Shown here piece by piece: positions 7,358-41,657 of a DNA stretch of 64,000 nucleotides. The notes under the pieces were generated by a model, which was not told where the DNA came from, ran no database searches, and was given only the letters and a program-made list of their open reading frames with translations. The DNA is from a virus. The number at the start of each line of letters is the position of its first letter. The stretch's first letter is position 1. The stretch covers positions 22,835 to 86,834 of IMG/VR virus record IMGVR_UViG_3300044999_000022; one strand, written 5' to 3'. A program made the translations under genes and the position numbers.

Positions 7358-7713
7358 TGTGGGTGTGGCTGCTACTGGATGACGTCTGTAGTGATATGAG
7401 TGTGTATCATCGTGTCAACGACATCCTGAAGCTGCCTGGGGTGGTCTTCTGGCGCTTGGCTGACCGCCTTCCGGCTTACAACGGCGCCGTAACTCGGGGC
7501 ATGGAACGTCTGAGCAAGGAGCTTGAGACCGTCACTCAGGCAGACGCTCGCGAGCTCTTGTACGACTACGTGGCGGAAGAGCTCGTACCGGACGAGGAGC
7601 CGGAGGTCGAGACTGAAACTGTCCTGACGGCGGAGCAGCTAGTAGCGCTAGGACCGGCTGCTCCCGCGCTGGGTCAGGATGTGCCGATATTTGAGGTTGT
7701 GAAGTGTACTTGA
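6956..7713 (+). CDS. Tail assembly chaperone GT, made by -1 frameshift
   Basis: The 0 frame contains AGC CCA AAA, giving the X-XXY-YYZ slippery heptamer CCCAAAA at 7315-7321. Slipping -1 joins residue 122 of the first frame (bases 6956-7321) to the frame re-reading base 7321 and ending at 7713. The joined sequence EPSPK-SPPEWATRSQEMMW is open with no stop, giving about 252 residues. The ATG at 7354 lacks a ribosome site, which supports expression only as a fusion. The mechanism is established for siphovirus tail chaperones. Confidence 0.85.
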
Positions 7714-7733
7714 CAAGGAGGTGACTATCTTCG

Positions 7734-23030: not shown

Positions 23031-23630
23031 TCAGTAGTGGAGGTGCTTCGGAGCGCAGCCTCTGCGGACAACGCGGACGGGGATCTTGGCCTCCCTAGCT
23101 TCCTGCCACGTGTACTCGTCTACGTGCGGGAATACCCAAGTGGCCATGTCGCTCCGGATACAGGCCTCGATGAGACGCCGTGGCAGGTACGTAAAGTTGA
23201 ACGTGAACATCGTAGGGTCGTCGATGTCGCTCTGCCATATCTTACGCGCTTCCTCATTGGACAGCGGCGGGTCCCGATCGGTAAGGACCTCTCGATGCCC
23301 CCAAACCCAGTAGTGATAAGCCGTGCTCGCCGGCCACAGGCGAACTGGCGCCGTCCAGACCACGTCTGGCTCTGTAGTCGCACTGATGATCATGGCGGAG
23401 TAGTCGAGCGGGTCGATAGCGCAGTCCGCATCGAGGATAAGCATCCCACTGCTCTGGACCCGGGCTGATACTTGCCAGATACGGGTCAGTAGCAATCCCT
23501 TCTGGCCGAAGGGGTGCTCTGCCGTAGGCATCACGTCAAAGGCGCGGAAGTTAGACGGTGTTGGCCCGCACTCCTTTCCCTGCCACCTGATACGCGCGTG
23601 TACTACGGACTCCAGTGCTGGCCCGTCCAT
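23031..23630 (-). CDS. GT-A glycosyltransferase-like protein
   Basis: 199 residues from the ATG at 23630, which overlaps the polymerase stop (TAATG) and has ggaggccgta upstream. The layout resembles a GT-A nucleotide-sugar transferase: an N-terminal alpha/beta half, then MLILDADCAIDP with a DxD-type motif (Asp-Ala-Asp), and a later WVFPHVDEYTWQEA acidic site. Coupling to the polymerase suggests a role in DNA modification, for example glycosylating a modified base. The fold is inferred by eye, so substrate and activity are open. Confidence 0.5.
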   Translation of the reverse strand: MDGPALESVVHARIRWQGKECGPTPSNFRAFDVMPTAEHPFGQKGLLLTRIWQVSARVQSSGMLILDADCAIDPLDYSAMIISATTEPDVVWTAPVRLWPASTAYHYWVWGHREVLTDRDPPLSNEEARKIWQSDIDDPTMFTFNFTYLPRRLIEACIRSDMATWVFPHVDEYTWQEAREAKIPVRVVRRGCAPKHLHY

Positions 23631-26600
23631 TACGGCCTCCATAGCTCTACAGTTGTCGGATAGGGACGCTTGCCGCCTTTCCAATCTTCGTAACTAACTA
23701 GGTCGCCCCAGTTCATACCGACGTCGGCGCCTACCTTGATCGGGACGTAGTCGCCCATTACGGAGTAGGCGGATTCCTGCATGGTTTCGACTACGGTTTT
23801 GACCACATAGTCCAGGTTATCACGGTGGAACTCCCAATAGAGAGCATCGTGAATAGTGTTACGGCACCAGGCGGTCCCTTTGAGCTTGGGTCGTAGCCAG
23901 TTGAAGGCTTGGACACAAATGTCGCTGGCAATTGACTGTGGGTAGAAGGCGCAAGCCTCATTCTGGATGTCCTTCCGGTTCTGGTCCGTGATCAGGTAGA
24001 ACCGACGTCGTCGCCCGAACGGAGTGACGAGGTCTCTTCCAGATAGCGCCTGTATCTTTGCCTCCTCGCGAAATCGGACAATCCTTGGAATGACCTTGAA
24101 GAACGCCTGCAGGCCTCGCTGAGCCTCTGCAACAGGTAGGCCAAATTCATCAGCGATTGACTGAGCCTCTCGGCCGTAAGCGAGACCGTAGACATAACAC
24201 TTGACGATATTTCGTCGGTCCTTCTTGGACATGATTCCGCGGTGGGATCGTTCGGGCTGGATGACTGGTTCGAGTTCATCAAATAGGTCCCTACTCGGGT
24301 CGGAGAAGATCTCTTGGAAGTATGGTTCTTGCGCGAGCCAGGTTAGTACCCGGAGCTCGATTTGTCCATAGTCGAACTCTCCCAAGAGGTGGTCAGGGTT
24401 AGCGACCTTATACTGGCGTCGTAGTTTATCGCCACGCGGAATGACCTGAAGCGACGGCCGTTTCTGAGAAGTTCGACCTGTAGTAGTGCTGTGGAGTTGG
24501 ATGGTCGTATACACACGGCCATGGTCGAGGAATTTGTGCAGGCCAGATACGTACGTACCATCTAGCTTTGCTACCTTCCGGTGCAGGAGCATCGTCTCGA
24601 GGAACGTAACCGAGGGCCGCGCGGAGTGCGGGTCTACCTCGACCACTTCGGCACCTAGTTGGTTAGTACCGCCCTCATTGGACACGTAGCCTGCGAGACG
24701 TCTAGGGTCGATGGGCCGCCTCTTCTCGCGCTCGAGCATGATCTGCAAGGCTTCGGCGTCGGTAGTCTCGGCCATCTCACCCTTAGTGTTCCGCTTGCGT
24801 GGGATCTGGACGCCTAGCTGTCGGAGTGCGTCCTTGACCTGCATAGGCGATCGCGGATTGATTGCGCCAACCGTCCGATCCATGATGGCCTCGAGGCGGT
24901 CGAGCTCTGCTCGATACTCGCGCTGGAGTTCACGGTTGTACTTGAGGTCGACCGCGAACCCATTGTATTCCGTGAACATGAAGTTTTCCGCTGCAGCGCA
25001 TAGGAAGTCATGGAGCTGCTCCAGCCCCCACTTCTGACCGTCAGCGCGAGGCAGTACGGGTTCGATATAATTATCGTTCCGGATAAGCTGCATGTTGTAC
25101 TCGTCCAAGGCAAACGTGGCTGCGACATCCCATGCGTTGTACTTGTACAGGATCGGCTTTGGGATCGTTCCGTACCGACGTTGCTTGCCTCGTCCGAGGT
25201 ATTGCTCAATCTCCTCATCCCATCTCGGACAGCCTAGCTTCTCGACGCCCTGGTGCTTCAGTCCGTGTATCCCCGGACGTTCGTCTTGTACGTAGGACTG
25301 GTACATTGTATCATGCCAGACATGTAGGCCGCGGATGCCTTTAGCATAGAGTCCTGCGGTATCGAACTTGCCGTTTTGAAATATGAGCTCCATTCCGTCT
25401 CCGGATAGATACTCTGCCAGAGCCCCACGGACAGACTTATAGCGGCAGGCTTTCTGCCCAAACACGATAGCATGGCGGCGTGACCAAGCCATTCCAATAC
25501 ATAGAATCTTATACTTATTGGGGTGATCAAACGTCGAGTTGTGTGTGAGGAGTCCATTAGCGATCAGCGTTCCTGTCGAGGTCTTGAGGGAAACGACTTC
25601 TCGTTCTCCTACTGGAGTGATCGATAGTATACGTGCTTTGTCATAGTTGAGGCGCTTATGCCAAACCCGTTCGGCCTGACGCAATAGCCTCTCGGGGCGG
25701 AAAGTGCCTAGAGTGCGAAGGATGTCCCACCGCGCCCCGATTGACCAGGACTCATGAGGATTGCCGCTAAGTCTGTTAAGACCTCGATAATGGTTGCCTA
25801 GATCATGCGCCTTCAATATCTGGGCGACCTTATCCGCGACCGGACCGACGTTCTGTGAGAACTCCAGCATCGGATGATTGCTGGCAGGGTTCGATAGGCA
25901 GCCCTCGCTGTCTAGAAAGCCCGCCATATAGCCGCCGTCGCGAGTTTCGTTAACCTCCCAAGGCTCCGACGTAAAAGGTATGAAGTATTCAGGTCGAGGT
26001 AGTGCTTGCTGGCCCCAGCAGCGACTGTTCGGATTTGCAAAGCGGGCTGCGAGGTCTTCTGTAGTGCCCCAGCGCCACTTTGTATCAACGCCCCGCGGAC
26101 CGCGCGTCTTATAAGGCCAACGATGCAGCCCGCTGCAGACAACGCTCCCACGGTCGGTCTGCACGCGGTAGCATTGACGCGTAATGCGTCCGACGGACTC
26201 GACGATCGCGGGGCTCATCGTAGTGATCGGATCCGCACTAAACCCGACTAGCTCATCCCCTACCTCGAGGCCGCCGGCATCGGTCCAGGTTAGGTCCCGC
26301 CTGAGCACTTTCGTCTCTGGAACGAGGCATTCCTTGTCCAGGTCGGTCTCGATGTCGACCGTTAGTCTCTTGAAGTGCTTCTTCATGTAGGCTATCGCGG
26401 TCAGGGCAGCCTTCTCGGTATTCCAGACCGTATAGTACGGCGCTTCCCACTTGGGAGGCTTAGTAACGAGTTTGCCGATGTCGGTCGCCATAGACGGGAA
26501 CGACGACGCCGAGCGCAGGCAAGCGGCAGGATGGAACGTCGGGATGATCCGTACCCCAGGCAGCTCGAACTCGTTCTCACGATACGGACCGACGCGGAGG

Positions 26601-27031
26601 TTGGAAATTACGACCTTCGTCCGCAGGATGCTCTGAGCCGGCACGTTGCCCAAGGCTACGATATCCCTAACGCCTCGGTCCTTGAGTTCGGCCATTAGTC
26701 GCGGCCTGCACGCTGCGACTGCGGCAGCTGGTGGCTTGATATTCTCCCTCTTGTGGACGCATAGGCAGGCGTTTGTGATAAACGCCTTACTACGATCGAT
26801 GTGGTAGTACTGCAGTACCTTGTCCAGCAACCTACCAGATGCGCCGATAAACGGCTTGCCCAGCCGGATCTCGTTCTGACCCGGGTTCTGGCCCACAAAG
26901 GCAATGTCAGCCTTTACCGGACCGTATGAAGGGACGAAACCGTAATCGGGTCCATTAAGCGGGCAGCGCTCACAGACCGCTAGGGGATGCCGGCGCTGAA
27001 TCCCGGCATCCCCTTCGATAACTTCAGTCAT
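23630..27031 (-). CDS. polA: UDG-DNA polymerase I fusion carrying an intein
   Basis: 1133 residues. Residues 1-190 are a family-4-type uracil-DNA glycosylase domain: Cys20/Cys23, FVGQNPGQNE, TNACLC with Cys91, Cys108, and the HPAACLR motif. This is an Fe-S-type Cys arrangement. Residues ~205-234 and 499-640 form the 3'-5' exonuclease, with DIET motif at 226-229. The intein is residues 235-498. The polymerase domain follows: motif A DYGQIELRVL near 887, motif B RRNIVKCYVYGLAYG at 939-953, motif C IHDAL near 1060, with Ala in place of the usual Glu. UDG-Pol I fusions are known from SPO1-like phages. Confidence 0.92.
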   Translation of the reverse strand: MTEVIEGDAGIQRRHPLAVCERCPLNGPDYGFVPSYGPVKADIAFVGQNPGQNEIRLGKPFIGASGRLLDKVLQYYHIDRSKAFITNACLCVHKRENIKPPAAAVAACRPRLMAELKDRGVRDIVALGNVPAQSILRTKVVISNLRVGPYRENEFELPGVRIIPTFHPAACLRSASSFPSMATDIGKLVTKPPKWEAPYYTVWNTEKAALTAIAYMKKHFKRLTVDIETDLDKECLVPETKVLRRDLTWTDAGGLEVGDELVGFSADPITTMSPAIVESVGRITRQCYRVQTDRGSVVCSGLHRWPYKTRGPRGVDTKWRWGTTEDLAARFANPNSRCWGQQALPRPEYFIPFTSEPWEVNETRDGGYMAGFLDSEGCLSNPASNHPMLEFSQNVGPVADKVAQILKAHDLGNHYRGLNRLSGNPHESWSIGARWDILRTLGTFRPERLLRQAERVWHKRLNYDKARILSITPVGEREVVSLKTSTGTLIANGLLTHNSTFDHPNKYKILCIGMAWSRRHAIVFGQKACRYKSVRGALAEYLSGDGMELIFQNGKFDTAGLYAKGIRGLHVWHDTMYQSYVQDERPGIHGLKHQGVEKLGCPRWDEEIEQYLGRGKQRRYGTIPKPILYKYNAWDVAATFALDEYNMQLIRNDNYIEPVLPRADGQKWGLEQLHDFLCAAAENFMFTEYNGFAVDLKYNRELQREYRAELDRLEAIMDRTVGAINPRSPMQVKDALRQLGVQIPRKRNTKGEMAETTDAEALQIMLEREKRRPIDPRRLAGYVSNEGGTNQLGAEVVEVDPHSARPSVTFLETMLLHRKVAKLDGTYVSGLHKFLDHGRVYTTIQLHSTTTGRTSQKRPSLQVIPRGDKLRRQYKVANPDHLLGEFDYGQIELRVLTWLAQEPYFQEIFSDPSRDLFDELEPVIQPERSHRGIMSKKDRRNIVKCYVYGLAYGREAQSIADEFGLPVAEAQRGLQAFFKVIPRIVRFREEAKIQALSGRDLVTPFGRRRRFYLITDQNRKDIQNEACAFYPQSIASDICVQAFNWLRPKLKGTAWCRNTIHDALYWEFHRDNLDYVVKTVVETMQESAYSVMGDYVPIKVGADVGMNWGDLVSYEDWKGGKRPYPTTVELWRP
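25538..26329 (-). other. Intein with LAGLIDADG-type endonuclease inside exonuclease motif I region
   Basis: 264 residues. It starts with Cys235 (CLVPETKVLRRDLTW, block A) and contains the block-B-like GSVVCSGLHRW. It has one clear DOD motif (GYMAGFLDSEGCLS) and ends with REVVSLKTSTGTLIANGLLTHN (blocks F and G). The next host residue is Ser499. It interrupts the polymerase four residues after the DIETD exonuclease motif. Splicing rejoins DLDKE with STFDHP. Confidence 0.93.
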
Positions 27032-27284: not shown

Positions 27285-27433
27285 TCCGTCAGCTCCTTGA
27301 TTGTGAAAAACTGGGCGGCGATCGGGATGGCCCAGTGCTGCTGGGCGTTTGGATTGAGGTCGATCGTGTACCCGTCGATCGGTTCGCTACGTTCGTCGCA
27401 GAACGTAATCAGTATCCGAGTCAATCCGTCCAC
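27281..27433 (-). CDS. Small hypothetical protein
   Basis: 50 residues from the GTG at 27433 with aagga upstream; the longer frame upstream is an overlap shadow. It contains TRILITFCDERSEPI and DLNPNAQQHW. It overlaps the next gene by four bases. Unknown function. Confidence 0.5.
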   Translation of the reverse strand: MDGLTRILITFCDERSEPIDGYTIDLNPNAQQHWAIPIAAQFFTIKELTE

Positions 27434-27906
27434 TTCCTTGTGTCCGGGATGGGGCCTGAGACGGGCCTGGAGTGCTGCTCGTCGGCGGAGGGGCGCCCCG
27501 GCATTGACTTGTTCGCTCCTCCGATGACGGCGGCCTCCCAACCGATGGCTCCGTAACCGGCAGTGTCGAGCCAGTTGTCGCGAACTTGTGGAGCGCCCAC
27601 GTTGCGCGCCTGCTTGAGGGCGATCTCGATGATCGCGTTGTCGAACGGCTCCAGCATCCTGCCGTCCGGGCCGCGATAGCCGAGTGCGTTGAGCTGATCG
27701 GTATGCCGCTTCATGACCTCGTATGGCTCACCATACTGGCCGTTGCGATCAGTACACGTAGCTGCGATCGCTCCATTGAGTAGTTCTTCTCGAGGAAGGC
27801 CTACAGGCTTTTCGACCCGTTCGACCCGTTCAGCAGCGCCCCCGCCGCCGGCGCCGACGGTCGGGTAACCGGGTCCGCCTTGATATACTACTCGTTCGTT
27901 CGCCAT
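27421..27906 (-). CDS. DUF6378/MazG-like protein
   Basis: 161 residues. A Gly-rich N-terminus is followed by a helical domain with RNGQYGEPYEVMKRHTDQLN, DNAIIEIALKQARN and DNWLDTAGYGAIGWEAAV. This is the pattern of the DUF6378 group of MazG-related all-alpha proteins that bind or cleave nucleotides. It lies directly downstream of the transglycosylase in the deazaguanine cluster and may police the nucleotide pool. The C-terminal ~35 residues are disordered. Confidence 0.65.
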   Translation of the reverse strand: MANERVVYQGGPGYPTVGAGGGGAAERVERVEKPVGLPREELLNGAIAATCTDRNGQYGEPYEVMKRHTDQLNALGYRGPDGRMLEPFDNAIIEIALKQARNVGAPQVRDNWLDTAGYGAIGWEAAVIGGANKSMPGRPSADEQHSRPVSGPIPDTRKWTD

Positions 27907-28733
27907 GGTCCACCTGCTAGCTCGTCTAGGAATTCGATGTTGTGTTCGATGAGTTGGCGCGTCTCGGTGCTGTACTCGTAGGGCGTGGTCTGGAAGAAGT
28001 TCGCCGGCCGAGGTACGCCTTGGGAACCTAGCAGGTCATGGCCTGCTAGCGCTGCAGTAAAGGGAGCTGCCGTATCCATACTGCGCACTAGGCCTTGACA
28101 GGCCGCCAGCTCTCCCGGCCAGTCATCATTATACCCGAGCAGGTGGATGTCGAACGCCGGACCGAACTCGTTCTTGGTCCAGCTTGCGAGGTCGTACCTA
28201 GCCATCGTGTCACCGACCGTCCTGGAGAATGCCCGGCCGATCGCGATGGTGCTAACTCGAGTGTCCGGACGCACGACAGCCATGGCCGCGATGTTTGTAA
28301 CGAAGGCACGAGCTTCCTCAACTGTCTTGCCGTGGGCGACTGCGGCGATCCTGATAACTGGCGGCGGTACCGCTCGGCGTCCCTGATAGAACGCCAACCG
28401 CTTCGTCTGGTACAGCGACAGGAAGAGATCGACCATTTCGAGCGTGATGACCGGGTTGTCGAGGACGTCCGGCGCGATGACCTCTGTAGCGTGGTACCGC
28501 TCGGCTAGGTCGACCAGGGAGTTCCCAGAGACCGATTCGGCCTCCCACGCGCCGTTGTCGAGAAGGCGGATCTCGGGAGTGAGATTCACCGTACGTGACT
28601 GGCTGTAGTACTTCCGGTAGTCCGCCTGCTGGCCGTCGCGTAGGCAGCCTGCAAGCATCATCTGGTATGGACGGCCACTGCAGTACCTACTCGCGAGGCA
28701 GCCGGGAGCTATGAGCGCAACCTGAATAGGCAT
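27888..28733 (-). CDS. dpdA: DpdA-like DNA 7-deazaguanine transglycosylase
   Basis: 281 residues from the ATG at 28733; the start is uncertain because the ribosome site is weak. It is a TIM-barrel TGT-like sequence: LLDNGAWEAE, EVIAPDVLDN, a conserved acidic and Gln/Gly-rich middle (KRLAFYQGRRAVPPPVIR), VSTIAIGR, then FDIHLLGYNDD. In phages such proteins exchange guanine in DNA for a 7-deazaguanine made by FolE-QueD-QueE. All three of those genes are in this window, two of them in the same unit. The family call is by motif pattern. Confidence 0.75.
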   Translation of the reverse strand: MPIQVALIAPGCLASRYCSGRPYQMMLAGCLRDGQQADYRKYYSQSRTVNLTPEIRLLDNGAWEAESVSGNSLVDLAERYHATEVIAPDVLDNPVITLEMVDLFLSLYQTKRLAFYQGRRAVPPPVIRIAAVAHGKTVEEARAFVTNIAAMAVVRPDTRVSTIAIGRAFSRTVGDTMARYDLASWTKNEFGPAFDIHLLGYNDDWPGELAACQGLVRSMDTAAPFTAALAGHDLLGSQGVPRPANFFQTTPYEYSTETRQLIEHNIEFLDELAGGPWRTNE

Positions 28734-29128
28734 AACAGAGTCGACGCCCACGTGACTGCGACGTTTGCGAGCTGCAGCAGCTCGTGCCGAAGGTTTACGC
28801 GGTCCTTGTCGTAGGTTAGACACTCGCCGACCTCACCGAACTCCTCCACGGCTGCTGCGAGACGACCGAAGTCGTCTATCTCGTTACCGTCGATTGACTT
28901 CTCGCCGTGCTTCCTCCGCATGAACTCGTGCTCGGCTCGCAGGTCGGCGTATGCGCTCTCGAGCGCGAGGTTAACGTGCTTCCTTCGGGGCAGCTCTTTA
29001 AGCGCTACTCGCTTGAGCTCTTCCCACTCGTCATTGGTAAGCACTAGTGTCGGGCCGCCGAGAACGGCTGTCAGAATGGACACGTGTCCACGCTCGTCGT
29101 GCCGTATGGACACTTCAGGCGTACTCAC
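28709..29128 (-). CDS. MazG-like nucleotide pyrophosphohydrolase
   Basis: 139 residues, GTG start overlapping the folE stop. The C-terminal half has AAAVEEFGEVGECL and LRHELLQLANVAVTWAST, the helix pair of MazG-like all-alpha NTP pyrophosphatases. The N-terminal half is an extra alpha/beta stretch (LVLTNDEWEELKRVAL). It may hydrolyse non-canonical or host nucleotides to support the deazaguanine pathway. Confidence 0.7.
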   Translation of the reverse strand: MSTPEVSIRHDERGHVSILTAVLGGPTLVLTNDEWEELKRVALKELPRRKHVNLALESAYADLRAEHEFMRRKHGEKSIDGNEIDDFGRLAAAVEEFGEVGECLTYDKDRVNLRHELLQLANVAVTWASTLLCLFRLRS

Positions 29129-29733
29129 ACGCCACCTCCTAGCAAGTTAAACAATTCGGTCTTGCAACCGTTGACATCGGCCTGGAAGATGCCGCGCATG
29201 GCGGACGTGATTGTTTCCGTACCATACGCTAGCGCTCCGCGTATCGTCATGCAGCTATGCTGTGCCTTCATGACGACTGCGACTCCCTTGGGATCTAGAA
29301 TGTCGTTCAGGGTATCGGCGATTGCGGACGTCAGTTCCTCCTGGTTTGTCAGCATTTTCGCTGAGGACTGGACTTGCCGAGCGAGTTTCGACAGGCCGGC
29401 GATGCGCCCGTCAGGGATGTACCCTATATGACACACCCCGCTAAACGGCGCGATGTGGTGGGCACACAGACTCGTGAACAGGATGTTCTTCTCAACAACC
29501 AACTCCTTGGAGTCTGACGTAAATGTTGTGAAGGTCCACTTCTCTTGTCCATTGGTCAGTTCCCTGACCATATCAACGAATCGCCGCGGTGTGTCTACCA
29601 TGTGAGGACTGGTCGGGTCGTATGCCTCGCCGCAGACCTTCTGCAGGAACATGTCGATAAGCACCTCAGGAGATGCTTCCCGGACTCCGAGACGCCATGG
29701 CTGCGCATTCGGGTGCTGAAAAGTATCAGTCAC
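29125..29733 (-). CDS. folE: GTP cyclohydrolase I
   Basis: 202 residues from the GTG at 29733 with ggaggcgatgag upstream. It has the FolE signature (LFTSLCAHHIAPF, GYIPDGRIAGLSKLAR) and the zinc site Cys90 with His92/93 plus a later Cys (QHSCMTIRG). It converts GTP to dihydroneopterin triphosphate, the first step towards 7-deazaguanine. It is overlapped at both ends by neighbouring genes in the modification cluster. Confidence 0.93.
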   Translation of the reverse strand: MTDTFQHPNAQPWRLGVREASPEVLIDMFLQKVCGEAYDPTSPHMVDTPRRFVDMVRELTNGQEKWTFTTFTSDSKELVVEKNILFTSLCAHHIAPFSGVCHIGYIPDGRIAGLSKLARQVQSSAKMLTNQEELTSAIADTLNDILDPKGVAVVMKAQHSCMTIRGALAYGTETITSAMRGIFQADVNGCKTELFNLLGGGV

Positions 29734-30074
29734 CTCATCGCCTCCATAACGTCTCCGACGTCGTGAGGGCCCTCGTTTACTACGCCGTACGGCGGGATGC
29801 CTGGAGTAGCCCACGCCTTCTTCCAGTTGTGCGCATCGGCATCTTGCCACCTCAAACGCGCCTGCTGGGCCTGCGACGACTGAACGACCTCGCGACTGAG
29901 GGCATACAGTCCCGCTGCCCGAATCGCCTTCGCGCGGCTTCGTGACCTGCGCCGACCGAGTGCCTCCTTCAGGTACGCTCGGTCGATCTCGGTCGGGCGC
30001 GCTGCGACAGCGCCTGCTCGCAGCTGGCGCTGGCGTCGTACGTTCTCTGCGCTCGATAGTCCGGCTTTTTTCAC
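29730..30074 (-). CDS. Basic hypothetical protein between queD and folE
   Basis: 114 residues from a GTG overlapping the queD stop (GTGA). The Arg-rich N-terminal half (RRQRQ, RRRSRSRAKA) suggests nucleic-acid binding. The C-terminal part is acidic. No family is recognised. Its place inside the deazaguanine cluster makes it a candidate accessory factor. Confidence 0.6.
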   Translation of the reverse strand: MKKAGLSSAENVRRQRQLRAGAVAARPTEIDRAYLKEALGRRRSRSRAKAIRAAGLYALSREVVQSSQAQQARLRWQDADAHNWKKAWATPGIPPYGVVNEGPHDVGDVMEAMR

Positions 30075-30580
30075 GGTATCACAGGGTCCTTCTTGATGAC
30101 GATTATGTCCTTGAGAATGGAATGGATCGCGATGTACATCCGCCGGCGGGCTTCGCTTGTGGGGGGCTCTTCTGCCAGGTCCTCCAAGGTAGCCATAACG
30201 CGATCGGAAACCGGAAGGTTTCCAGGCATCCACCATGCCCAGGTCTTCGGCGTCTCGCTAACTCCGACCGCAGTGACCTCTGGGTACATGTTGACGGCGA
30301 CCTCATAGATCGCGTGCGCCATGTTCTCTGCTGTCGGATTGCCAACGAACTGCTCTAGCTCGTTGATCAGCTCGTGGTCGAAGTTGAGATCTAGCCACTT
30401 CTTGAACTTGTCCAGCTCGCGGTAGTCCCGAACGAAGCCGACCTTGTTGAGGCCTTGTGATTCCAGGACGAGGCGTACGGTATAATTATGGCCGTGCATA
30501 CGGCTACATGGGTGGTCGTCCGGCAGTCCGTTTAGCTGATGGGCCGCGCTGAAGGTGAACTCTTTCTCTATACGATACAC
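30071..30580 (-). CDS. queD: 6-carboxytetrahydropterin synthase
   Basis: 169 residues from the GTG at 30580 with aggag upstream. The zinc ligands His14, His29 and His31 (SAAHQLNG, CSRMHGHNYTV) and catalytic Cys25 are present, followed by FVRDYRELDKF, LNFDHELINE and NPTAENMA. It makes 6-carboxy-tetrahydropterin, the second pathway step. The last ~45 residues extend beyond the usual ~120-residue fold. An in-frame Cys-rich extension of 67 codons lies upstream (see 30581-30781). Confidence 0.88.
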   Translation of the reverse strand: MYRIEKEFTFSAAHQLNGLPDDHPCSRMHGHNYTVRLVLESQGLNKVGFVRDYRELDKFKKWLDLNFDHELINELEQFVGNPTAENMAHAIYEVAVNMYPEVTAVGVSETPKTWAWWMPGNLPVSDRVMATLEDLAEEPPTSEARRRMYIAIHSILKDIIVIKKDPVIP

Positions 30581-30781
30581 GTAATGACTCCTAAAGTGAA
30601 GGCGGCAAGCGGGACCAGTCGCTCTCTGCTGGCAAACCCCTACCCTGCGCGCGGCCGCTCTCCAGTTACAACAGGACGTAAACTCCCGCTGACCGTGGGG
30701 GCGGCATCTGACAGGTACCGGTTTCGCCCGCTTCTTGCAGCGGTACGGTACTCTTGCTCTTACCTGCGACTTGGCCTTCAC
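30581..30781 (-). other. Cys-rich in-frame extension upstream of queD
   Basis: A frame open from a GTG at 30781 runs without a stop into queD. It encodes 67 residues with six Cys (YRCKKRAKPVPVRC, then FTSCCNWRAA, then GVC and PACRLH), spaced like a small zinc finger. No good ribosome site precedes the GTG. It may be untranslated leader, a zinc-finger fusion, or a decayed gene. Confidence 0.4.
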
Positions 30782-30793
30782 GACTAGATAGGG

Positions 30794-31342
30794 CTAGCCC
30801 GGAAGGAGGCTAGACTCCTTCGGGGTGGACCTGGTATGGCTGCCAGCTCCGGGGCCGGTCTTGTGCGCGGTGGCCTCGTCGTACGGGCTGAAGCCGCGGA
30901 GCTGGACCCACCGCTCTTCCAGGTCCGGCCACTTGTCCTTCTGCTTCTTGTCGACGGCGCGCCGGCCCATGAGCTGCTCGCCGAGGTAGAACTCCGGCTC
31001 GGTCGGGATGTCGAGCTCCTTGCCGTCCAGGCACTCCTCGTACTTGCCGATCGCCTTCAGGATCATGATGATCGTGTACAGCGCGCCCTTCGTGCCGGCC
31101 TCCTCGTCGGCGCCCCAGAGGCACGCGTTCGTGAAGTCCTTACGGTTCGCGAACTCCTGCCACGGTCCCGGCGTGTCCTGAACCGTGAACTCGAAGGCGA
31201 GCATCGGCTTGCCGAAGTTGTTGTCCGAACCGGACTCGGTGAGCTCGACGCCCGTGATGGCGAAGTGGTACTTGCCGATCGGAAGGGGTTCCCGATCGCC
31301 GGCCTGCTTCTCCTGCTCGGAGACGTTTACGCGGATACCCAT
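30794..31342 (-). CDS. DUF669-like single-stranded DNA-binding protein
   Basis: 182 residues from the ATG at 31342 with aaggagtaacagc upstream. The pattern PIGKYHFAITGVEL, KPMLAFEFTVQD, TIIMILKAIGKYEECLDGKEL and then a disordered Pro/Gly/Ser tail matches the DUF669/OB-fold ssDNA-binding proteins that accompany Sak4-type recombinases in phages. It would coat ssDNA in replication and recombination. Confidence 0.65.
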   Translation of the reverse strand: MGIRVNVSEQEKQAGDREPLPIGKYHFAITGVELTESGSDNNFGKPMLAFEFTVQDTPGPWQEFANRKDFTNACLWGADEEAGTKGALYTIIMILKAIGKYEECLDGKELDIPTEPEFYLGEQLMGRRAVDKKQKDKWPDLEERWVQLRGFSPYDEATAHKTGPGAGSHTRSTPKESSLLPG

Positions 31343-31346
31343 GCTG

Positions 31347-31646
31347 TTACTCCTTGCTTGCCTTTGCCGTTGTCTTGGGAACATAGTGCGGAGTGACTTG
31401 GATGTTGAGTGTGGTACCGTAGTGCCCGCCGGCGTGCCCGCTGGCGGTGATGTAGTACCGGTTCTCGTAGTCGGCCTGTACAGGAGTCAGATCATCTGCT
31501 CCGATGGCCGCGATCAGAAGGTCGGCAGCCTTCTTGCGAAGAGCGTCCGCGCGCGCATCGCTGGTGTCACTGTCGTGGTCCCGGCGATGCTCCAACTGGG
31601 CTACGACTTCATCGCGCGTCCCAGAGGCCGTGATGCTGAAACTCAC
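31347..31646 (-). CDS. Hypothetical alpha/beta protein
   Basis: 99 residues from a GTG overlapping the upstream stop. An N-terminal strand (SFSITASG) is followed by a helix (RADALRKKAADLLIAAI) and C-terminal strands (RYYITASGHAG, TLNIQVTP). The SITASG/ITASGHAG repeat suggests a small symmetric fold, common next to phage recombination genes. Function unknown. Confidence 0.65.
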   Translation of the reverse strand: MSFSITASGTRDEVVAQLEHRRDHDSDTSDARADALRKKAADLLIAAIGADDLTPVQADYENRYYITASGHAGGHYGTTLNIQVTPHYVPKTTAKASKE

Positions 31647-31858
31647 GGTGCTACTCCCTTGTCTGCCGTCGTTGATGTGTTGGTCTCCATCGGGATGCCG
31701 ATATGTGTCGTACTCCCGCCGGTGATCGTTGCCGAATGCACGTCGTGCCCCGCCTTGCAGAGCTTGCCCACGAACTCGCACAACAGGTTGTCCGCATCCT
31801 CGGGGAGCCCGTTGTGATGAACGCCGTGTCCGAGAATGTGGATGTCCCAGTGTCCCAT
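31643..31858 (-). CDS. His-rich small phage protein
   Basis: 71 residues, ribosome site ggaaggaggtgaagt. MGHWDIHILGHGVHHNGLPEDADN is a conserved-looking start, followed by LLCEFVGKLCKAGHDVHSATITGG. It resembles short conserved actinophage proteins of unknown function. The His cluster could bind metal. Confidence 0.65.
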   Translation of the reverse strand: MGHWDIHILGHGVHHNGLPEDADNLLCEFVGKLCKAGHDVHSATITGGSTTHIGIPMETNTSTTADKGVAP

Positions 31859-31878
31859 TTTACTTCACCTCCTTCCGT

Positions 31879-32736
31879 TCATGAGATAACTATGCCCTCG
31901 TACAACTCGTCCATTGACGAGTTAACAAGGACACGCTCGAAAGCGCCTGTCCTGCTCTTGGCCACGTACCCCTCGGTCAGGCCGGTAAGCAAGCAGCGCC
32001 TCTGGTCTGTGACGATCTTGGTCTTGCCTTCCGCCTGCTTGTCCTCTAGTACGTACAGATACAGTACGTTCGAGAACATTCCGGCTGCCTGGTTCTTCAG
32101 CTTACCGGGCAGGTCAGGATACGTCCACGTGATGCCGGCGTTGTTGCGCTCCGACGCCTCGTGACACACAAAGATGAAGTTGACGGGCAGGTCGCGAAAG
32201 GCTCGAATCATGCGACGCATCTGACTGATGGACTGGCCCCACTCGCGGACACTCGGCACGTCGATGTCGACTGGACCGCCTCCCGGCCGGCCAGTCTTCT
32301 CTAGATCGACCATGATGTCACGCATGGACAGCTTCTGCGCTTCAGTGCCGGTGTCGACTACTATCGTCTTAAATGGCAGTTCGCCGCCGGAGCCTATGAC
32401 GCGCTGGCATTCCGTCCAGACGTCCACGTACTGCTGGAACTCCCGTATGTGCATTGTTACTGCCTCGGGAGCCCACCGGCGCAGGGTGTCTAGCTCTGCG
32501 GCGTCGGGAACGGTATACAGTACCGGTGACATCGCAGGAACGCGGGCCGCAGTCGCGGCTAGCGCCGTCTTGCCCGCGCCCGGCTTGCCGTAGATCATGA
32601 TCTTGGCGTGGTGCGGACGCTCGGTTACTCGTGATACTGGAAAGCCGGCAAACTCTGGAGGGTTCCAGGTTCTCGCCAAGGCTTCTATGACGGCCTCGGC
32701 CTCGGCAGCCTTCTCTAGGTCATCCGCTGTTGTCAT
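31879..32736 (-). CDS. Sak4-like RecA-fold ATPase
   Basis: 285 residues. It has Walker A GKPGAGKTA (about 50-58), Walker B FKTIVVDTGT near 125, then VNFIFVCHEA (sensor-like). The compact RecA core with these motifs is typical of phage AAA_24/Sak4 single-strand annealing recombinases. It is flanked by a Cas4/RecB-like nuclease and a DUF669-like ssDNA-binding protein, which supports a recombination role. Confidence 0.8.
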   Translation of the reverse strand: MTTADDLEKAAEAEAVIEALARTWNPPEFAGFPVSRVTERPHHAKIMIYGKPGAGKTALAATAARVPAMSPVLYTVPDAAELDTLRRWAPEAVTMHIREFQQYVDVWTECQRVIGSGGELPFKTIVVDTGTEAQKLSMRDIMVDLEKTGRPGGGPVDIDVPSVREWGQSISQMRRMIRAFRDLPVNFIFVCHEASERNNAGITWTYPDLPGKLKNQAAGMFSNVLYLYVLEDKQAEGKTKIVTDQRRCLLTGLTEGYVAKSRTGAFERVLVNSSMDELYEGIVIS

Positions 32737-33926
32737 TGTCGTTGTCGTTTCCTTTCTACCTCATACCATGGAGGTGTTTGCACAAAACCTGCGCCCAGTT
32801 CACCCTGGAAGTCATGACCGGCGCGCTTGGCTAGGCACGGGCTGAGAAAGGCACATCGCCCGCAGCGCATGAGATTCGGGTGTGGACGAACGTTATCTGG
32901 GTCCATGTACAGGATCTCGTGCGTTGCCTGCATCAATTCCCGCCCGATGACGTCTATCTGAGCTGGTGTCTTGAAGATCTTGAACTGCCTGAAGTACTCT
33001 TTGCCTTCCTGCTGCAGCCAGTATAGGTAGGCGTCGTAGCGACCTTGCCTGAACCCGACCTTGTCCTTCTTGAAAGTGCGAAGGGCAGTATAGTAGTCCG
33101 TCAGCTGCAACTTGTTAACGCTGTATCCCCCGCCCTGCAGTAGCTTAGGCGGCTTCGGATAGGTCTTCCGGAACTGGTTGTAGATGGCCCCGCAGACCTG
33201 GATGTCCAATTGCCAGGCAGCCCACAGGTACATACCTAGCTGGGTATCTTGCTGCAAGTAGTCGATGTCTTCATAGGACAGTAGCTGGGCGGCGCTCTTG
33301 TGGTCAACTAGCCACAGACTACCTACCGGGTCCTCGAAGATAGCGTCGATACGGCAGCCGAAGACTACAGGCAGTCCTCTCCACTCATGGGGCGGAGCAA
33401 CTGAGACCCTGCCAGACTGGACGGCCTTTGACGCGACGATCTTCTCCAGCAGTGGCTCGTAGCGGTCCATGTACTTCTGCCAGCAGCGCATGCACCGGCA
33501 GCGCAGGTTCAGCTCTACTTGATACTCCTGCTCGACGACGATCGGTGTGAACAGCTCGAAGTCCAGACTACGAACGACGTTCACAAGCATGTTACGCCCT
33601 AGGCGGCGCCGCTCGGCATAGTCCTCAGCGTCTTGGGCGTCGAGGACGATCTTTCCTAGGCGGCCTAGGTACTCATCGATCTGAACGTTACACTCTTGCT
33701 GGAATACCTCCCAAGCGTCGTCCAACAATTGCTGCTTCGTGCGCTGGCGCCATACATGAGGATCGTAAACCTCTTTGAGCGCTAGATGCCATGCCCTACC
33801 GAACTCCAGCGGCTTTGGCGTCCTGATCGGCTCCCAGCCGTCCCGGTATTCCCAGGCCCACTCTTGCGGGCACTCATCAAGTCCACGTATCTCGGACGAG
33901 TGGATCTCGTGTACCAGCTCGTCCAC
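32733..33926 (-). CDS. Cas4/RecB-like PD-(D/E)XK nuclease with Fe-S cysteines
   Basis: 397 residues from the GTG at 33926 with ggaggagcac upstream. The nuclease core GCRIDAIFED then SLWLVDHKSA supplies the Asp and Asp-x-Lys residues. The C-terminal RCGRCAFLSPC is like the Fe-S Cys set of Cas4/AddB nucleases, with the early Cys33-region residue (DECPQEW) as a possible fourth ligand. An internal CRCMRCW adds a second Cys cluster, which is unusual. It probably processes DNA ends with the adjacent ATPase. Confidence 0.82.
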   Translation of the reverse strand: MDELVHEIHSSEIRGLDECPQEWAWEYRDGWEPIRTPKPLEFGRAWHLALKEVYDPHVWRQRTKQQLLDDAWEVFQQECNVQIDEYLGRLGKIVLDAQDAEDYAERRRLGRNMLVNVVRSLDFELFTPIVVEQEYQVELNLRCRCMRCWQKYMDRYEPLLEKIVASKAVQSGRVSVAPPHEWRGLPVVFGCRIDAIFEDPVGSLWLVDHKSAAQLLSYEDIDYLQQDTQLGMYLWAAWQLDIQVCGAIYNQFRKTYPKPPKLLQGGGYSVNKLQLTDYYTALRTFKKDKVGFRQGRYDAYLYWLQQEGKEYFRQFKIFKTPAQIDVIGRELMQATHEILYMDPDNVRPHPNLMRCGRCAFLSPCLAKRAGHDFQGELGAGFVQTPPWYEVERKRQRQ

Positions 33927-34396
33927 TAGTGCTCCTCCGCCCAAACATTGGCGGCCTTTGTATAGCACCCTCCAGGATGACCTTGAGCGGCGTACAAGCA
34001 GTCCTTATCGTGTACCTGTACCGGCAATAGATTACGTGGACGCTTCGTCATCCCAGTTGGCGGCGGTGCTTGAATCCTGCTGCCGGTCTTGTTCGCCACC
34101 TCTCGGAGATCGGCCAGGCTGGACATTGCGTAGACGCCTTGGACGTCGTAACCGAGATGGCGCGCGAGATACCGGGCCTCTTCAATACCTTCGACCGTAT
34201 TGGTGAACACTCCGGAGGACTGGTCGTTCCTGCCGATCAGCACGCAGTAGTTCAATCCCTGGCCAGGGAGCGGCGCTAGTTCGTCCTTGTCTCCATGGGC
34301 AGGACACGCCCGCATGCTCGAGATTGCAACGCCCGGAATATTGTCAATGACGCATGTACAAGTTGGTTCGCTTGGATCGCTATCACTATCTTTCAT
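33926..34396 (-). CDS. Hypothetical protein, probably translated from a leaderless mRNA
   Basis: 156 residues. The -10 box ends six bases before the ATG, so transcription likely starts at or next to the start codon and no ribosome site is present. It contains several Cys (CTCVIDN, RACPAHGD, DCLYAAQGHPGGC) and a central EARYLARHLGYDVQGVYA stretch. It is first gene of the recombination/modification unit. No family is recognised. Confidence 0.65.
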   Translation of the reverse strand: MKDSDSDPSEPTCTCVIDNIPGVAISSMRACPAHGDKDELAPLPGQGLNYCVLIGRNDQSSGVFTNTVEGIEEARYLARHLGYDVQGVYAMSSLADLREVANKTGSRIQAPPPTGMTKRPRNLLPVQVHDKDCLYAAQGHPGGCYTKAANVWAEEH

Positions 34397-34402
34397 ACTA
34401 AT

Positions 34403-34430
34403 AGTATATCATTGGAAGAAGACGAATCTC
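34403..34430 (-). promoter_or_regulatory. Promoter P2 for the recombination and deazaguanine unit
   Basis: - strand -10 TATACT (34408-34403), with GAGATT at 34430-34425, 16-base spacer. It lies right after a terminator and six bases before the ATG at 34396. The unit it starts may run ~11 kb to 23031. Confidence 0.65.
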
Positions 34431-34489
34431 GCTGATATTCCACCGAAATTTCGAGGAATTTATTTGGCGGACAATCCGACGTATGCAGT

Positions 34490-34503
34490 GCCTAATTTTA
34501 GGC
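34490..34503. other. 14-base palindrome near P2
   Basis: A perfect inverted repeat (GCCTAA with TTAGGC, two-base centre) lies between the terminator and P2, about 60 bases upstream of the -35. It is a possible operator; no second copy was noticed. Confidence 0.3.
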
Positions 34504-34543
34504 AAAAAGAAAGGGCCGACGCTCCTGGCTGGAGCGCCGGCCC
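34500..34543 (-). terminator. Intrinsic terminator of the QueE unit
   Basis: A 13-bp GC stem (34513-34525 with 34531-34543, one G-T pair) has a five-base loop and is followed on the - strand by a U-rich run (CTTTCTTTTT). It is the most classical terminator in the window. Confidence 0.9.
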
Positions 34544-34549
34544 GTGGGT

Positions 34550-34648
34550 CTACTTGAACATCTGTTGGCGAAGCCGCCGCATAGGCTTGCGGTTCCGCAG
34601 CGCCTTAAGCGTGAGCCATAGCGAGCGGCGACGACGGCGATGCCACAT
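34550..34648 (-). CDS. 32-residue Arg-rich peptide
   Basis: A strong ribosome site (gaggaggtatca) precedes the ATG. The peptide MWHRRRRRSLWLTLKALRNR and onward is extremely basic and amphipathic. It is followed at once by the intrinsic terminator. It could bind RNA/DNA or a host protein; no homologue is recognised. Confidence 0.65.
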   Translation of the reverse strand: MWHRRRRRSLWLTLKALRNRKPMRRLRQQMFK

Positions 34649-34659
34649 TGATACCTCCT

Positions 34660-35253
34660 CTACTGCTCCGTGAGCGGGATCCAGAACGAGCCGGTCGGCG
34701 GGCCGCTGAAGACCCACCCAGCGTTCCAGGTCTTGCGGACCGTCAGTCCGTGCCACCAGATCTGGTAACCCCGCTGGGGGGTGCTGATGAACTCGTGGTG
34801 CTGGTTGTACATCCGGCCGACCGAGTTATGCTTGATCCCTCCGAACATGAACAGCGTCTGGGGCAGCGGCACATCGCGATTCTTCGGCACGTCCAGCAGC
34901 TCGACCGCATTGTTCGTGCCGGGAATGCCTCCGATGACGTATTGCGGGTGGGCTGCCAGCGCGATCAGGACGGTGCCCTTGAGGACAATCCCGGTCCAGA
35001 TCTGGAGCGCGTCACCAGCCGTGCAGCCGAACACGTACAGCTCGGCATGGTTGGCAGCGTTTCCGGCCGTGAGGCACTGGCCGCGTTCGCCGTTCGGATG
35101 GATCGTGCCCTCAAAGTGGTACCCCGTAACTGCATGGCGCTGTACGATAGCCGCCGGTCTTGTGAGGGCGGCGCTGGCTGGTCCCGCTGTCATGGAAATA
35201 CCTCCGATCCCGATTGCGGCTGCTACCGCGACGGCTAGCCACTTTTGTTTCAT
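34660..35253 (-). CDS. Secreted lectin-like protein
   Basis: 197 residues with a clear Sec signal peptide (basic start, hydrophobic core to about residue 22, AGPASAA cleavage site). The mature part has GERGQCLTAGNAANHAELYV then GDALQIWTG, like a ricin-type beta-trefoil unit, and a second QxW-like GYQIWW. It would be exported by the host cell. It may bind cell-surface glycans or released phage; that role is speculative. Confidence 0.7.
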   Translation of the reverse strand: MKQKWLAVAVAAAIGIGGISMTAGPASAALTRPAAIVQRHAVTGYHFEGTIHPNGERGQCLTAGNAANHAELYVFGCTAGDALQIWTGIVLKGTVLIALAAHPQYVIGGIPGTNNAVELLDVPKNRDVPLPQTLFMFGGIKHNSVGRMYNQHHEFISTPQRGYQIWWHGLTVRKTWNAGWVFSGPPTGSFWIPLTEQ

Positions 35254-35305
35254 TGATCACCCTCTCGGGCCTGAATTGCTGCAGAATTTCTACAGCGCCT
35301 ACGTG

Positions 35306-35926
35306 TTAGGGCTTCTGGTAGACCGCCATTGCCGTGTCCGTGGCGATGATCGGCCAGTCCAGCTTCGAGGGGGAGTTACCGAGGATCAGGTAGGCCCCCG
35401 AAGACATGTGCTCCGTGACCTGGGCTTCCAGCGCCATGGCGACGTCGTAAACCCAGATGGGTCGGTTGTGGAAGACGATGTCGTACGAACCGTAGCCATT
35501 GAAGAGCAGGGCATCGTTTACGACTGCCGACGCTGCAGAATCGTATTGACGTATCAGGGCCCTAGCGCTTGCGACATACTCTGGATTGATGTCGAAGCCG
35601 TCAGAGTCGAGGCCGAAGACCTTATCGACCATAACTAGCTTCGTGCCGACGCCGCAGCCGACTTCAAGAAGGGAAGTCGGCTGGCCCATGTAGTTCGTCT
35701 GTGTGTGTAGTAGCACAGCATTGACCAGGTAGCCGAAACGGCTCAGCGGGTGTGGCTTGAAGTTCCAGTGATCACCGGTTTTGCTGTTGTCGATCGACAC
35801 GGCCTCCAGGCCGACCAGTTCGTTGATCAGGTTGCGAACGCTCTGGTCCGCCCACGAGAAGTCGAACCCTGCGACGTCGTGGTCGAGGTCCGCTTCTCCT
35901 ACCAGCTTCGGCGCCTCGTCGGTCAT
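35306..35926 (-). CDS. Class I SAM-dependent methyltransferase
   Basis: 206 residues from the ATG at 35926 (ggaggaacg upstream); a GTG at 35992 in the same frame would add 22 residues. Motif I SLLEVGCGVGTKL, motif II DGFDINPEYVASAR, and NDALLFNGYGSYDIVFHNR follow the Rossmann methyltransferase order. The substrate is unknown: a small molecule, protein or DNA are all possible. It lies in the same unit as queE. Confidence 0.8.
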   Translation of the reverse strand: MTDEAPKLVGEADLDHDVAGFDFSWADQSVRNLINELVGLEAVSIDNSKTGDHWNFKPHPLSRFGYLVNAVLLHTQTNYMGQPTSLLEVGCGVGTKLVMVDKVFGLDSDGFDINPEYVASARALIRQYDSAASAVVNDALLFNGYGSYDIVFHNRPIWVYDVAMALEAQVTEHMSSGAYLILGNSPSKLDWPIIATDTAMAVYQKP

Positions 35927-35988
35927 CGTTCCTCCGTATGTGTTTTGTATGTAACGAACTACGTCCGTATAGCTGAACAGTGAGTCGC

Positions 35989-36285
35989 TCACGACTGCTG
36001 TGCCCGTGCTTGCTGGACTTGCTTGGCGACCTTCTCGATTGCCAAGATTGCGTTAAATGCCAACTTGAGATCGGTTATGAGACCGGCGCGCTTGTCTGCG
36101 TCCTTTGCGTACGGGAGTACTCCGCGCCGAACTAGGTAGTCGAAGTACCCATCAGGATCGTCCAGGATGAATGCGAGCGCGTGAACGGCAGGCGCCAGTG
36201 CTGTATGCCCGATGTCGGCCGGCCCCGGATCGACAGGAGCCTTTCCCAGGAGGACCTGCTCTACGGGTTCGAAGTCGACGCTCAC
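35989..36285 (-). CDS. Hypothetical helical protein
   Basis: 98 residues from a GTG overlapping the upstream stop (GTGA). Contains FILDDPDGYFDYLVRRGVLPYA and a C-terminal Gln/Ala helix. No family is recognised. Confidence 0.6.
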   Translation of the reverse strand: MSVDFEPVEQVLLGKAPVDPGPADIGHTALAPAVHALAFILDDPDGYFDYLVRRGVLPYAKDADKRAGLITDLKLAFNAILAIEKVAKQVQQARAQQS

Positions 36286-36482
36286 GACTGTCCATTCACG
36301 CGTATCTGCAGCGCAGCCGACTCGAGCGTCTCCGCTGTCGTGCTGGCGTCGGTTGACGTACTCAGCAGGCGAAGACGGCCGTGAGGGCATACGGCGATAA
36401 GGATCACGCCAACAACCTCATCCTCTGAGACGTGGACGATCTCCGCTACCTTGGCAATAATTTCTCCGACGGTCTGGCTCAT
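36282..36482 (-). CDS. Hypothetical protein
   Basis: 66 residues, ribosome site gagggacc. An N-terminal helix (GEIIAKVAEIVHVSEDEVVG) is followed by a short beta part. Coupled to its neighbours; unknown function. Confidence 0.6.
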   Translation of the reverse strand: MSQTVGEIIAKVAEIVHVSEDEVVGVILIAVCPHGRLRLLSTSTDASTTAETLESAALQIRVNGQS

Positions 36483-36724
36483 GGTCCCTCAATCAGCGTC
36501 AATCCGAGTGGGAGCTTCCTTCTGTGGCGGACGATTTCGTATCTGGCCGTGCCTAGTCCATAGTGCCACTGCAGGGCAATGCCGCCGTTGACCTTATCTC
36601 CATTGTAGTATACGTGCCAGTAGTAACCGAACTCGCACTCAGTGATCTCGATCCGGTACCGGTGGACGCTCTGGGACGAGGTCTCGATTGAGGTACTGCT
36701 GGTCGGTGAAGTGTTGGCAGTCAC
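36479..36724 (-). CDS. Hypothetical protein with 86-base overlap
   Basis: 81 residues from a GTG with gggggcactcact upstream. A Ser/Thr-rich start leads to a beta-rich HRYRIEITECEFGYYWHVYYN core. It overlaps the upstream gene by 86 bases in another frame. Unknown function. Confidence 0.5.
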   Translation of the reverse strand: MTANTSPTSSTSIETSSQSVHRYRIEITECEFGYYWHVYYNGDKVNGGIALQWHYGLGTARYEIVRHRRKLPLGLTLIEGP

Positions 36725-36824
36725 AGTGAGTGCCCCCGGGACATTGTGCGTGCTGGCGGTTCGCCTCTTCGACGTCTCCCGCCGCGAATGCCTTGCCCGC
36801 AGCCTTACAGGGATCGCACGTCAC
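36639..36824 (-). CDS. Cys-rich small protein
   Basis: 61 residues from a GTG. CDPCKAAGKAF and CPGGTHCDCQH form a probable zinc knuckle. The C-terminal ~25 residues overlap the next gene. Unknown function. Confidence 0.5.
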   Translation of the reverse strand: MTCDPCKAAGKAFAAGDVEEANRQHAQCPGGTHCDCQHFTDQQYLNRDLVPERPPVPDRDH

Positions 36825-37048
36825 GGATGGGCCCTCACCTCGTCCAGGAGTGCCTGGTACTCGCGATGCGCCGCCCGCTTGGTAGCGGCTCGTTCGTTGT
36901 TGTCGTCTCCATGCAGTTCTGACTCGTCGACCACATAGCCATTCACGATTTCATACGCCTTGAGCGTGTGCGGCTTCTCGTCCCAGTACCACTTGCGATA
37001 CCTCGTGCGAAGGACGATCTCACCAAGAGGCTTTTCAGTTTTGGACAT
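36821..37048 (-). CDS. Hypothetical protein downstream of queE
   Basis: 75 residues from the ATG at 37048 with ggaagcggtag upstream. Charged; RTRYRKWYWDEKPHTLKAYE and a helical C-terminus. It begins three bases after queE ends. Unknown function. Confidence 0.6.
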   Translation of the reverse strand: MSKTEKPLGEIVLRTRYRKWYWDEKPHTLKAYEIVNGYVVDESELHGDDNNERAATKRAAHREYQALLDEVRAHP

Positions 37049-37050
37049 TA

Positions 37051-37869
37051 CTACCGCTTCCTTTCCTCTTCCCATATGAGCGTTTGTAGCCGCGTACTGA
37101 GACCGAACCCTCGGTCGATTGCGCGTTGCCCTAGCCGTATCGTGCCCGCTAGGACCTCCCTGCGCGTACGTCCTTCTGGCATGAGCATCACCTTCCCTGG
37201 CGGGATCTCGTAGCGGTCGGTCAGTAGGTCGACCTCTTCGAGGTCCTCCTCTATCTGTGCCTTAGTAATCACGAACTTGAAGGTAACGTTCTGGAGGCCG
37301 GCAAAGAACTGTAGCGGGGCGTCTACGCGTCTTGTCTGCGTAGTGTTGCCGCTGGAGTGCAACTTCGGCGAGACGACGTAGTGCGCAACGTGCCCGTGAA
37401 GCAGGAAGCCTGGCAACTTCGTACCCGCAGTCTCGATGTGGATCTGATAACCGGCGTGCTCGAGCGTGTGGGCCAGCTCGCCTAGCAAGTCTGTAGCCCT
37501 AGTAAAGAGCGCAGGCTCGTCCCGCGTCATCAGCCTACCGCCGGTCTGCAACAGCGGTTCGCCTCCTGAGAAGACTACGATACAAGGATCGGCCAGCTCA
37601 AGGAGCTTCGTACGGACCTCCATGACAGTCATCTCATGAATTTCGGCTTCGCGGGAGTAGACAATCTTGTCCTCGTGTCGCTTGGCTGTCGCTTCCGTAA
37701 AGGCCCAGGTGTAAGCGGTATCGCACCAGCCGCAACGAAGATTGCATATCGCGAGCCGTACCCAGAGAGCTCGCTGGCCGATGAAGGATCCCTCACCCTG
37801 AAGGGTCGGGCCGAAGATCTCGTTGATCCGCAGTTTCGGAAGGTCGAGCCTCAAGTGGGTTCCGCTCAT
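37051..37869 (-). CDS. queE: 7-carboxy-7-deazaguanine synthase, radical SAM
   Basis: 272 residues. NEIFGPTLQGEG and the CX3CX2C cluster Cys42, Cys46, Cys49 (AICNLRCGWCDTAYTW) are diagnostic for QueE. IVVFSGGEPLLQ and IHIETAGT follow. It uses an Fe-S cluster and SAM to turn 6-carboxy-tetrahydropterin into 7-carboxy-7-deazaguanine, the third step. It is in a separate unit from folE/queD/dpdA, under the promoter at 38417-38445. Confidence 0.93.
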   Translation of the reverse strand: MSGTHLRLDLPKLRINEIFGPTLQGEGSFIGQRALWVRLAICNLRCGWCDTAYTWAFTEATAKRHEDKIVYSREAEIHEMTVMEVRTKLLELADPCIVVFSGGEPLLQTGGRLMTRDEPALFTRATDLLGELAHTLEHAGYQIHIETAGTKLPGFLLHGHVAHYVVSPKLHSSGNTTQTRRVDAPLQFFAGLQNVTFKFVITKAQIEEDLEEVDLLTDRYEIPPGKVMLMPEGRTRREVLAGTIRLGQRAIDRGFGLSTRLQTLIWEEERKR

Positions 37870-41568: not shown

Positions 41569-41577
41569 TACCACAAG

Positions 41578-41657
41578 TGGGAGGCGCGGGAATCGAACCC
41601 GCCCTTCCGAACTCCACGAAGGATAAAAGTTCGGCGTGCCCATTACACTATCCTCCC
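41578..41657 (-). tRNA. tRNA-like element F with enlarged anticodon loop, possible tRNA-Lys(UUU)
   Basis: 80 bases. Acceptor GGGAGG/CCTCCC (position 7-66 mismatched), D arm GTG-TAATGGG-CAC, a 5-bp stem CCGAA/TTCGG, variable AAGG, perfect T arm GCGGG-TTCGATT-CCCGC, discriminator A. The anticodon loop is 18 instead of 7 bases. Read from its 5' side it is C-U-UUU-A, then about 11 extra bases. It could be a tRNA with a tiny intron-like insert, a degenerate tRNA, or a class II-like molecule. Confidence 0.6.

Follow-up and report, generated by a model that had tools for sequence, protein, structure and literature searches.

A predicted phage 7-deazaguanine DNA-modification module in a soil-phage record without QueC

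The window analyzed here is the 64,000-nucleotide stretch from base 22835 to base 86834 of the linear, 86,834-bp IMG/VR virus record IMGVR_UViG_3300044999_000022, from a soil phage. It carries a putative 7-deazaguanine DNA-modification module, with all module genes on the minus strand. The genes central to this module are as follows.

37051–37869, minus strand: queE (phrog_2076, QueE-like, 9e-45; TIGR03365, 5e-27; CxxxCxxC in the sequence)
30071–30580, minus strand: queD, 6-carboxytetrahydropterin synthase (PF01242, 2e-29; TIGR03367, 3e-24; likely start GTG at 30580)
29125–29733, minus strand: folE, GTP cyclohydrolase I (PF01227, 1e-50; phrog_2197, 3e-47)
27888–28733, minus strand: dpdA, predicted DNA-guanine transglycosylase, a minimal member of the phiST/CP220 family (fold model and family profile)

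Family profiles matched all three of the pathway genes named in a preliminary description of this DNA, which had been made from its letters. The queE product showed 40% identity to the QueE of syntenic IMG/VR phages. QueD was nearest to Arthrobacter phages (Sonali and Mufasa8) and not to its own kin, with 55% identity to Sonali versus about 24–28% to the kin. Encoding FolE, QueD and QueE places the locus among phage systems for 7-deazaguanine DNA modification. Judged from homology within their families, the three enzymes would convert GTP to 7-carboxy-7-deazaguanine (CDG).

The dpdA product (281 amino acids) had no match to Pfam, NCBIfam or tRNA-guanine transglycosylase (TGT) profiles, and none in isolate phages by tblastn or in single-sequence searches. 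Its family was found through the IMG/VR kin of queE, among them phages that share the replication module and each have a homologous open reading frame (ORF) beside the DNA polymerase gene of PolA type. An AlphaFold (AF2) model built from nine sequences reached a pLDDT of 87 and a pTM of 0.88. Its best matches in the PDB were TGTs (E = 2.5e-6, probability 1.0), and its top viral matches included a protein of Cellulophaga phage phiST (TM 0.75/0.81) and one of Vibrio phage nt-1, a phage described as having DpdA2 (PMC6884629). A family profile of 49 sequences matched the solved bacterial DNA-guanine transglycosylase DpdA (7ui4) at 5e-5, over a span including the HLLG and S-x-D motifs; 7ui4 differs in its length (436 amino acids) and has no close sequence similarity to the window protein. 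A profile of nine sequences had given only spurious PDB matches, so that 49 were needed, and hhalign of the DpdA profile against the single sequences of E. coli TGT or the transglycosylase of Mycobacterium phage Bipper gave weak results.

An iterative profile united the window DpdA with proteins of phiST, CP220 and BSTP5, and the resulting sequence family, presumably DpdA3, has members in Campylobacter (CP220) and Bacillus (BSTP) phages. Its members have a median length of 255 amino acids, and D59, D89 and D220 are invariant. On visual inspection, D59 and D220 are similar to TGT motifs, and their equivalence to the TGT catalytic residues was judged from the motif, not from superposition. The zinc motif CxCxxC, present in E. 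coli TGT, was found in 0 of 49 members. The view that 27888–28733 encodes a genuine, though highly divergent, DNA-guanine transglycosylase is well supported by the predicted model, the fold search and the family profile, which bear out the DpdA-like call of the preliminary description and supply the structure prediction that it had proposed as a check.

QueC is absent from this record. A PF06508 search of all 86,834 bp found no QueC, and the identical search was positive in 17 of 22 related records. A profile made from the QueCs of the kin also failed to match the record, in a search without a positive control of its own. The SGGxDS motif, which defines QueC (PMC13329287), occurred in no ORF of the record, and no queC lies next to its primase-like genes. 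The single QueF match in the genome was a weak one to FolE itself; we take the shared tunnelling fold as the reason. A PHROG scan of 20 further large ORFs, which left out most small ORFs, found no amidotransferase or ligase that might serve as an amidating enzyme. These whole-record searches, which the preliminary description had called for, agree with its reading that neither QueC nor Gat-QueC is seen and that the visible pathway ends at CDG. As neither was found in the record, we place the module with the QueC-less kind and not on the preQ0 branch.

The DpdA family is encoded at 114 IMG/VR loci; the analysis retained the best 80 of these and added four phiST-like loci. The loci compared carry L numbers: L001/L002 are the left 22 kb of the present record, and the other numbers denote IMG/VR or phage loci. 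We defined as comparable kin the polymerase-linked loci that have folE and for which 5.5 kb or more of upstream sequence was available (n = 56). All 56 had QueC, and in 50 a MazG-type gene lay no more than 2.5 kb from dpdA. The set contains near-duplicates and its members share descent, so the 56 kin are not independent events. The gene order in the kin is helicase, nuclease, RecA-like, SSB-like, [primase, queC], queD/queE, folE, MazG-type genes, dpdA and polymerase. The window differs in that queE lies between the helicase and nuclease genes, and the primase-like genes are far off, at the left of the contig. The gene adjoining the module on the side of dpdA provides context:

23630–27031, minus strand: UDG-PolA fusion DNA polymerase (PF00476, 6e-52; PF03167, 8e-24)

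This gene neighbors dpdA in the window and in nearly all kin, and linkage of dpdA to folE, queE and a polymerase gene recurs in dozens of phages. The kin from soil phages (L084, L099, L103, L105 and L107; L006–L011; L025) resemble the window in the replication module, the DpdA family and the adjacency of dpdA and UDG-PolA. Unlike the window, they carry queC wherever the sequence suffices, have two MazG genes of other families and have queE adjoining folE. In a maximum-likelihood tree, the window DpdA grouped with L084, L099, L103, L105 and L114 (support at the fork 94/79); it falls within the clade that carries QueC, and its branch is long and of uncertain exact position. As QueC was found in every one of the comparable kin, the phage looks like a case of secondary loss of queC, and this contrast with its kin is the new point.

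The loop aligned with the GG loop of 7ui4 contains residue 166, which is G in the window DpdA. Of the 42 rows grouped as QueC-positive, including a few short contigs of undetermined QueC status, 38 have P at this residue and the other 4 have S; five of the six other QueC-less rows have S. The change from P to G in this conserved and probably base-binding loop could be a specificity switch, a signal that is suggestive only.

We propose that the module would act as follows. FolE, QueD and QueE would supply CDG, and the minimal DpdA would exchange guanine in the phage DNA for a 7-deazaguanine base, as its predicted fold, the invariant Asp and its kin suggest. The inserted base would be either unaltered CDG or a compound derived from it independently of QueC, for example plain 7-deazaguanine by decarboxylation. 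The outcome would be protection against host restriction, which has been demonstrated for other phages (PMC6884629). A base at the CDG level appears likeliest because the phage falls inside a QueC-carrying clade and yet its record lacks QueC, and we regard the chances of this reading as roughly evenly balanced. Several points weigh against it. The presence of QueC in all comparable kin suggests that QueC is normally needed in the clade, and the absence of terminal repeats from the record means that a piece of the genome, possibly with queC on it, may be missing. At residue 166, S also occurs in QueC-positive relatives near the window, and four of the QueC-less rows, of phiST type, form one clade; for these two reasons the signal at this residue is not more than suggestive.

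The main rival is that the host supplies QueC, which we hold to be possible, if on balance doubtful. The phage enzymes would then raise the flux to CDG, host QueC would convert this to preQ0, and DpdA would insert preQ0 or a derivative. QueC is widespread in bacteria, as seen in our control genomes, and phages that have DpdA alone and depend on the host pathway have been described (PMC6884629, PMC8306585). However, dropping just the last of the four steps would be unusual in this clade, where all 56 comparable kin retain QueC.

An explanation that we think unlikely is that the phage does have queC, in a stretch of its genome that the linear contig does not cover. Consistent with this explanation, both ends of the contig lie in minus-strand early-type genes and terminal repeats were not found; in addition, queC of the kin adjoins the primase gene, and in the present phage that gene is no longer located with the module. 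On the other hand, the record (86.8 kb) is longer than most kin records (about 50–54 kb) and has genes for structure (terminase and capsid), lysis (endolysin) and replication (primase-like, polymerase and helicase), and its primase-like genes have no queC beside them. That the genes serve host folate or queuosine metabolism instead of phage DNA modification is very improbable: FolE is common to folate synthesis and a boost to host tRNA queuosine has been suggested for phages without DpdA (PMC6884629), but membership in the DpdA family is well supported, the linkage of dpdA to folE, queE and polymerase genes recurs widely, and deoxyguanosine (dG) is completely replaced by 7-deazaguanine derivatives in the DNA of Firehammervirus of Campylobacter, the genus of family member CP220 by taxonomy, according to a review (PMC10273834).

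Modules without QueC have several precedents. Two isolates, phiST (79 kb) and MA9V-3 (103 kb, circular), speak for insertion at the CDG level, since both encode this DpdA family, FolE and QueE but no QueC. Phage phiST (NC_020842; queD-queE-folE-MazG-...-dpdA) resembles the window in having this DpdA family, FolE, QueD, QueE and a nearby MazG gene. It differs in its single tight cluster, in a kinase-like P-loop gene before dpdA, in having no PolA gene adjoining dpdA, in its Bacteroidetes host and in the position of its DpdA on another branch of the tree. QueC is also lacking from four records that may be incomplete, those behind L024, L026, L124 and L126. In L026, an ORF at 10723–11568 encodes FolE2, an alternative GTP cyclohydrolase (PF02649, 3e-71), and no FolE was found there; an ORF in L024 (12994–13968) is similar to it by eye. 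Cui et al. (2023, NAR 51:9214) reportedly found phage DNA that contained dCDG and dDG, and a DpdA3 subfamily that allows complete replacement of guanine; they are also said to have described a CDG decarboxylase. Bipper (KU728633), like the window, has FolE, QueD, QueE and a transglycosylase, although the last was not detected as a member of the phiST/CP220 DpdA family. Bipper lacks QueC alone, and CDG was suggested in 2019 as a base that it might insert (PMC6884629). With Bipper, phiST, MA9V-3 and the metagenomic phages lacking QueC, the window phage has forerunners. QueC-less modules were known before, and this record is another lineage with apparent loss of QueC.

Other features in and around the module are listed below.

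27421–27906, minus strand: DUF6378 protein between dpdA and the polymerase gene (PF19905, 2e-10)
28709–29128, minus strand: possible MazG-like nucleotide pyrophosphohydrolase, a weak assignment (EExGE motif; phrog_2831, of unknown function, 3e-5 only)
29730–30074, minus strand: small basic protein, function not assigned; the ORF overlaps the ends of queD and folE
34513–34543, minus strand: terminator-like hairpin, by pattern match only (13-bp stem with 11 G-C pairs, loop of 5, T-rich tail TTTCTTTTTG)
34660–35253, minus strand: small protein whose start resembles a signal peptide, last in the queE block (weak ricin-B-lectin-like match at 0.005, below the cut-off)
35306–35992, minus strand: SAM-dependent methyltransferase near queE (generic methyltransferase matches only)

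The methyltransferase was weighed as a CDG-modifying enzyme and rejected; no phage relatives of it were found, and it had only generic matches. The basic protein does sit between queD and folE, as the preliminary description had it; a search for relatives of this ORF found none.

Of the two interleaved proteins that had been called MazG-like, the first matched DUF6378, which we presume to be MazG-like, and the second was left with the weak phrog_2831 match. Single-sequence hhalign of 27421–27906 against MazG proteins of the kin gave no match. For 28709–29128, there was no match in Pfam or by single-sequence hhalign, and the AlphaFold model had a pLDDT of 46. Its sole IMG/VR relative adjoins a thymidylate-kinase-like ORF, a cytidylate-deaminase-like ORF (both named by eye from the sequence) and a PolA gene, neighbors that would suit a role in the nucleotide pool and prove nothing. 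P-loop kinase-like genes occur near genes of this DpdA family in phiST, BSTP5, Youna2, CP220 and L026. In the annotation of CP220 (L042, 4751–7244), for example, dpdA is flanked by an HD-phosphohydrolase/P-loop gene on one side and a thymidylate-kinase gene on the other. MazG profiles gave no match in pathway loci without this DpdA family (L003–L005 and L012–L023), a small sample with some short loci searched with profiles from the other group.

The recurrent MazG and kinase neighbors and the small size of the enzyme lead us to leave open a speculative and quite improbable idea, that minimal DpdAs act on the deoxynucleotide pool before replication and not on finished DNA, the substituted base here being the negatively charged CDG. 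MazG or HD hydrolases would remove dGTP, DpdA would carry out the base exchange on free dG nucleotides, kinases would remake the triphosphate, and the linked PolA would incorporate it, giving full replacement of guanine. Such a route would be comparable to the replacement of adenine in Z-genome phages.

The preliminary description had also placed queE in a transcription unit apart from folE, queD and dpdA. The hairpin read from 34543 to 34513 is the strongest terminator-like site of the region (12 sites versus 9.6 expected), and it divides queE and its neighbors from the nuclease-RecA-SSB-queD-folE-dpdA block. Two units are plausible given a strong hairpin at this position, so the predicted terminator favors that part of the claim; separate control of queE is plausible as an interpretation, with all genes on the same strand.

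The genome appears to be a mosaic of Streptomyces-phage-like structural genes and the replication module of DpdA-family phages: the terminase and capsid genes (L001/L002) are similar to those of Streptomyces phages such as Zuko and Lizz. This likeness gives only a hint at the host. Scans of 84,980 prokaryote genomes returned no match for either this DpdA family or the phage terminase and so assigned no host.

A few observations on other genes were made along the way. UDG-PolA contains a putative intein of about 264 amino acids (window 25538–26329, minus strand), starting with CLVPETKV and ending with LLTHN before S, and polymerases of the kin align as two blocks flanking it. L001 has two primase-like ORFs about 1.1 kb apart (7274–8674 and 9817–10746), of which only the second matches the primase profile; the kin locus L009 has a single protein of 756 amino acids. 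The sole tRNA of the window called by ARAGORN (41577–41657, minus strand) has the anticodon tta, is UAA-suppressor-like and is perhaps a false call.

The findings extend QueC-less guanine modification, as predicted here, to another phage lineage. QueC-positive kin and a QueC-less relative would offer a natural contrast on how the base specificity of DNA transglycosylases changes. Metagenomic phages widely carry this DpdA family, which the standard profiles tried failed to detect. The family's nearly constant linkage to a polymerase gene, often with nucleotide-pool genes, makes it directly testable whether complete replacement of guanine takes place before or after replication.

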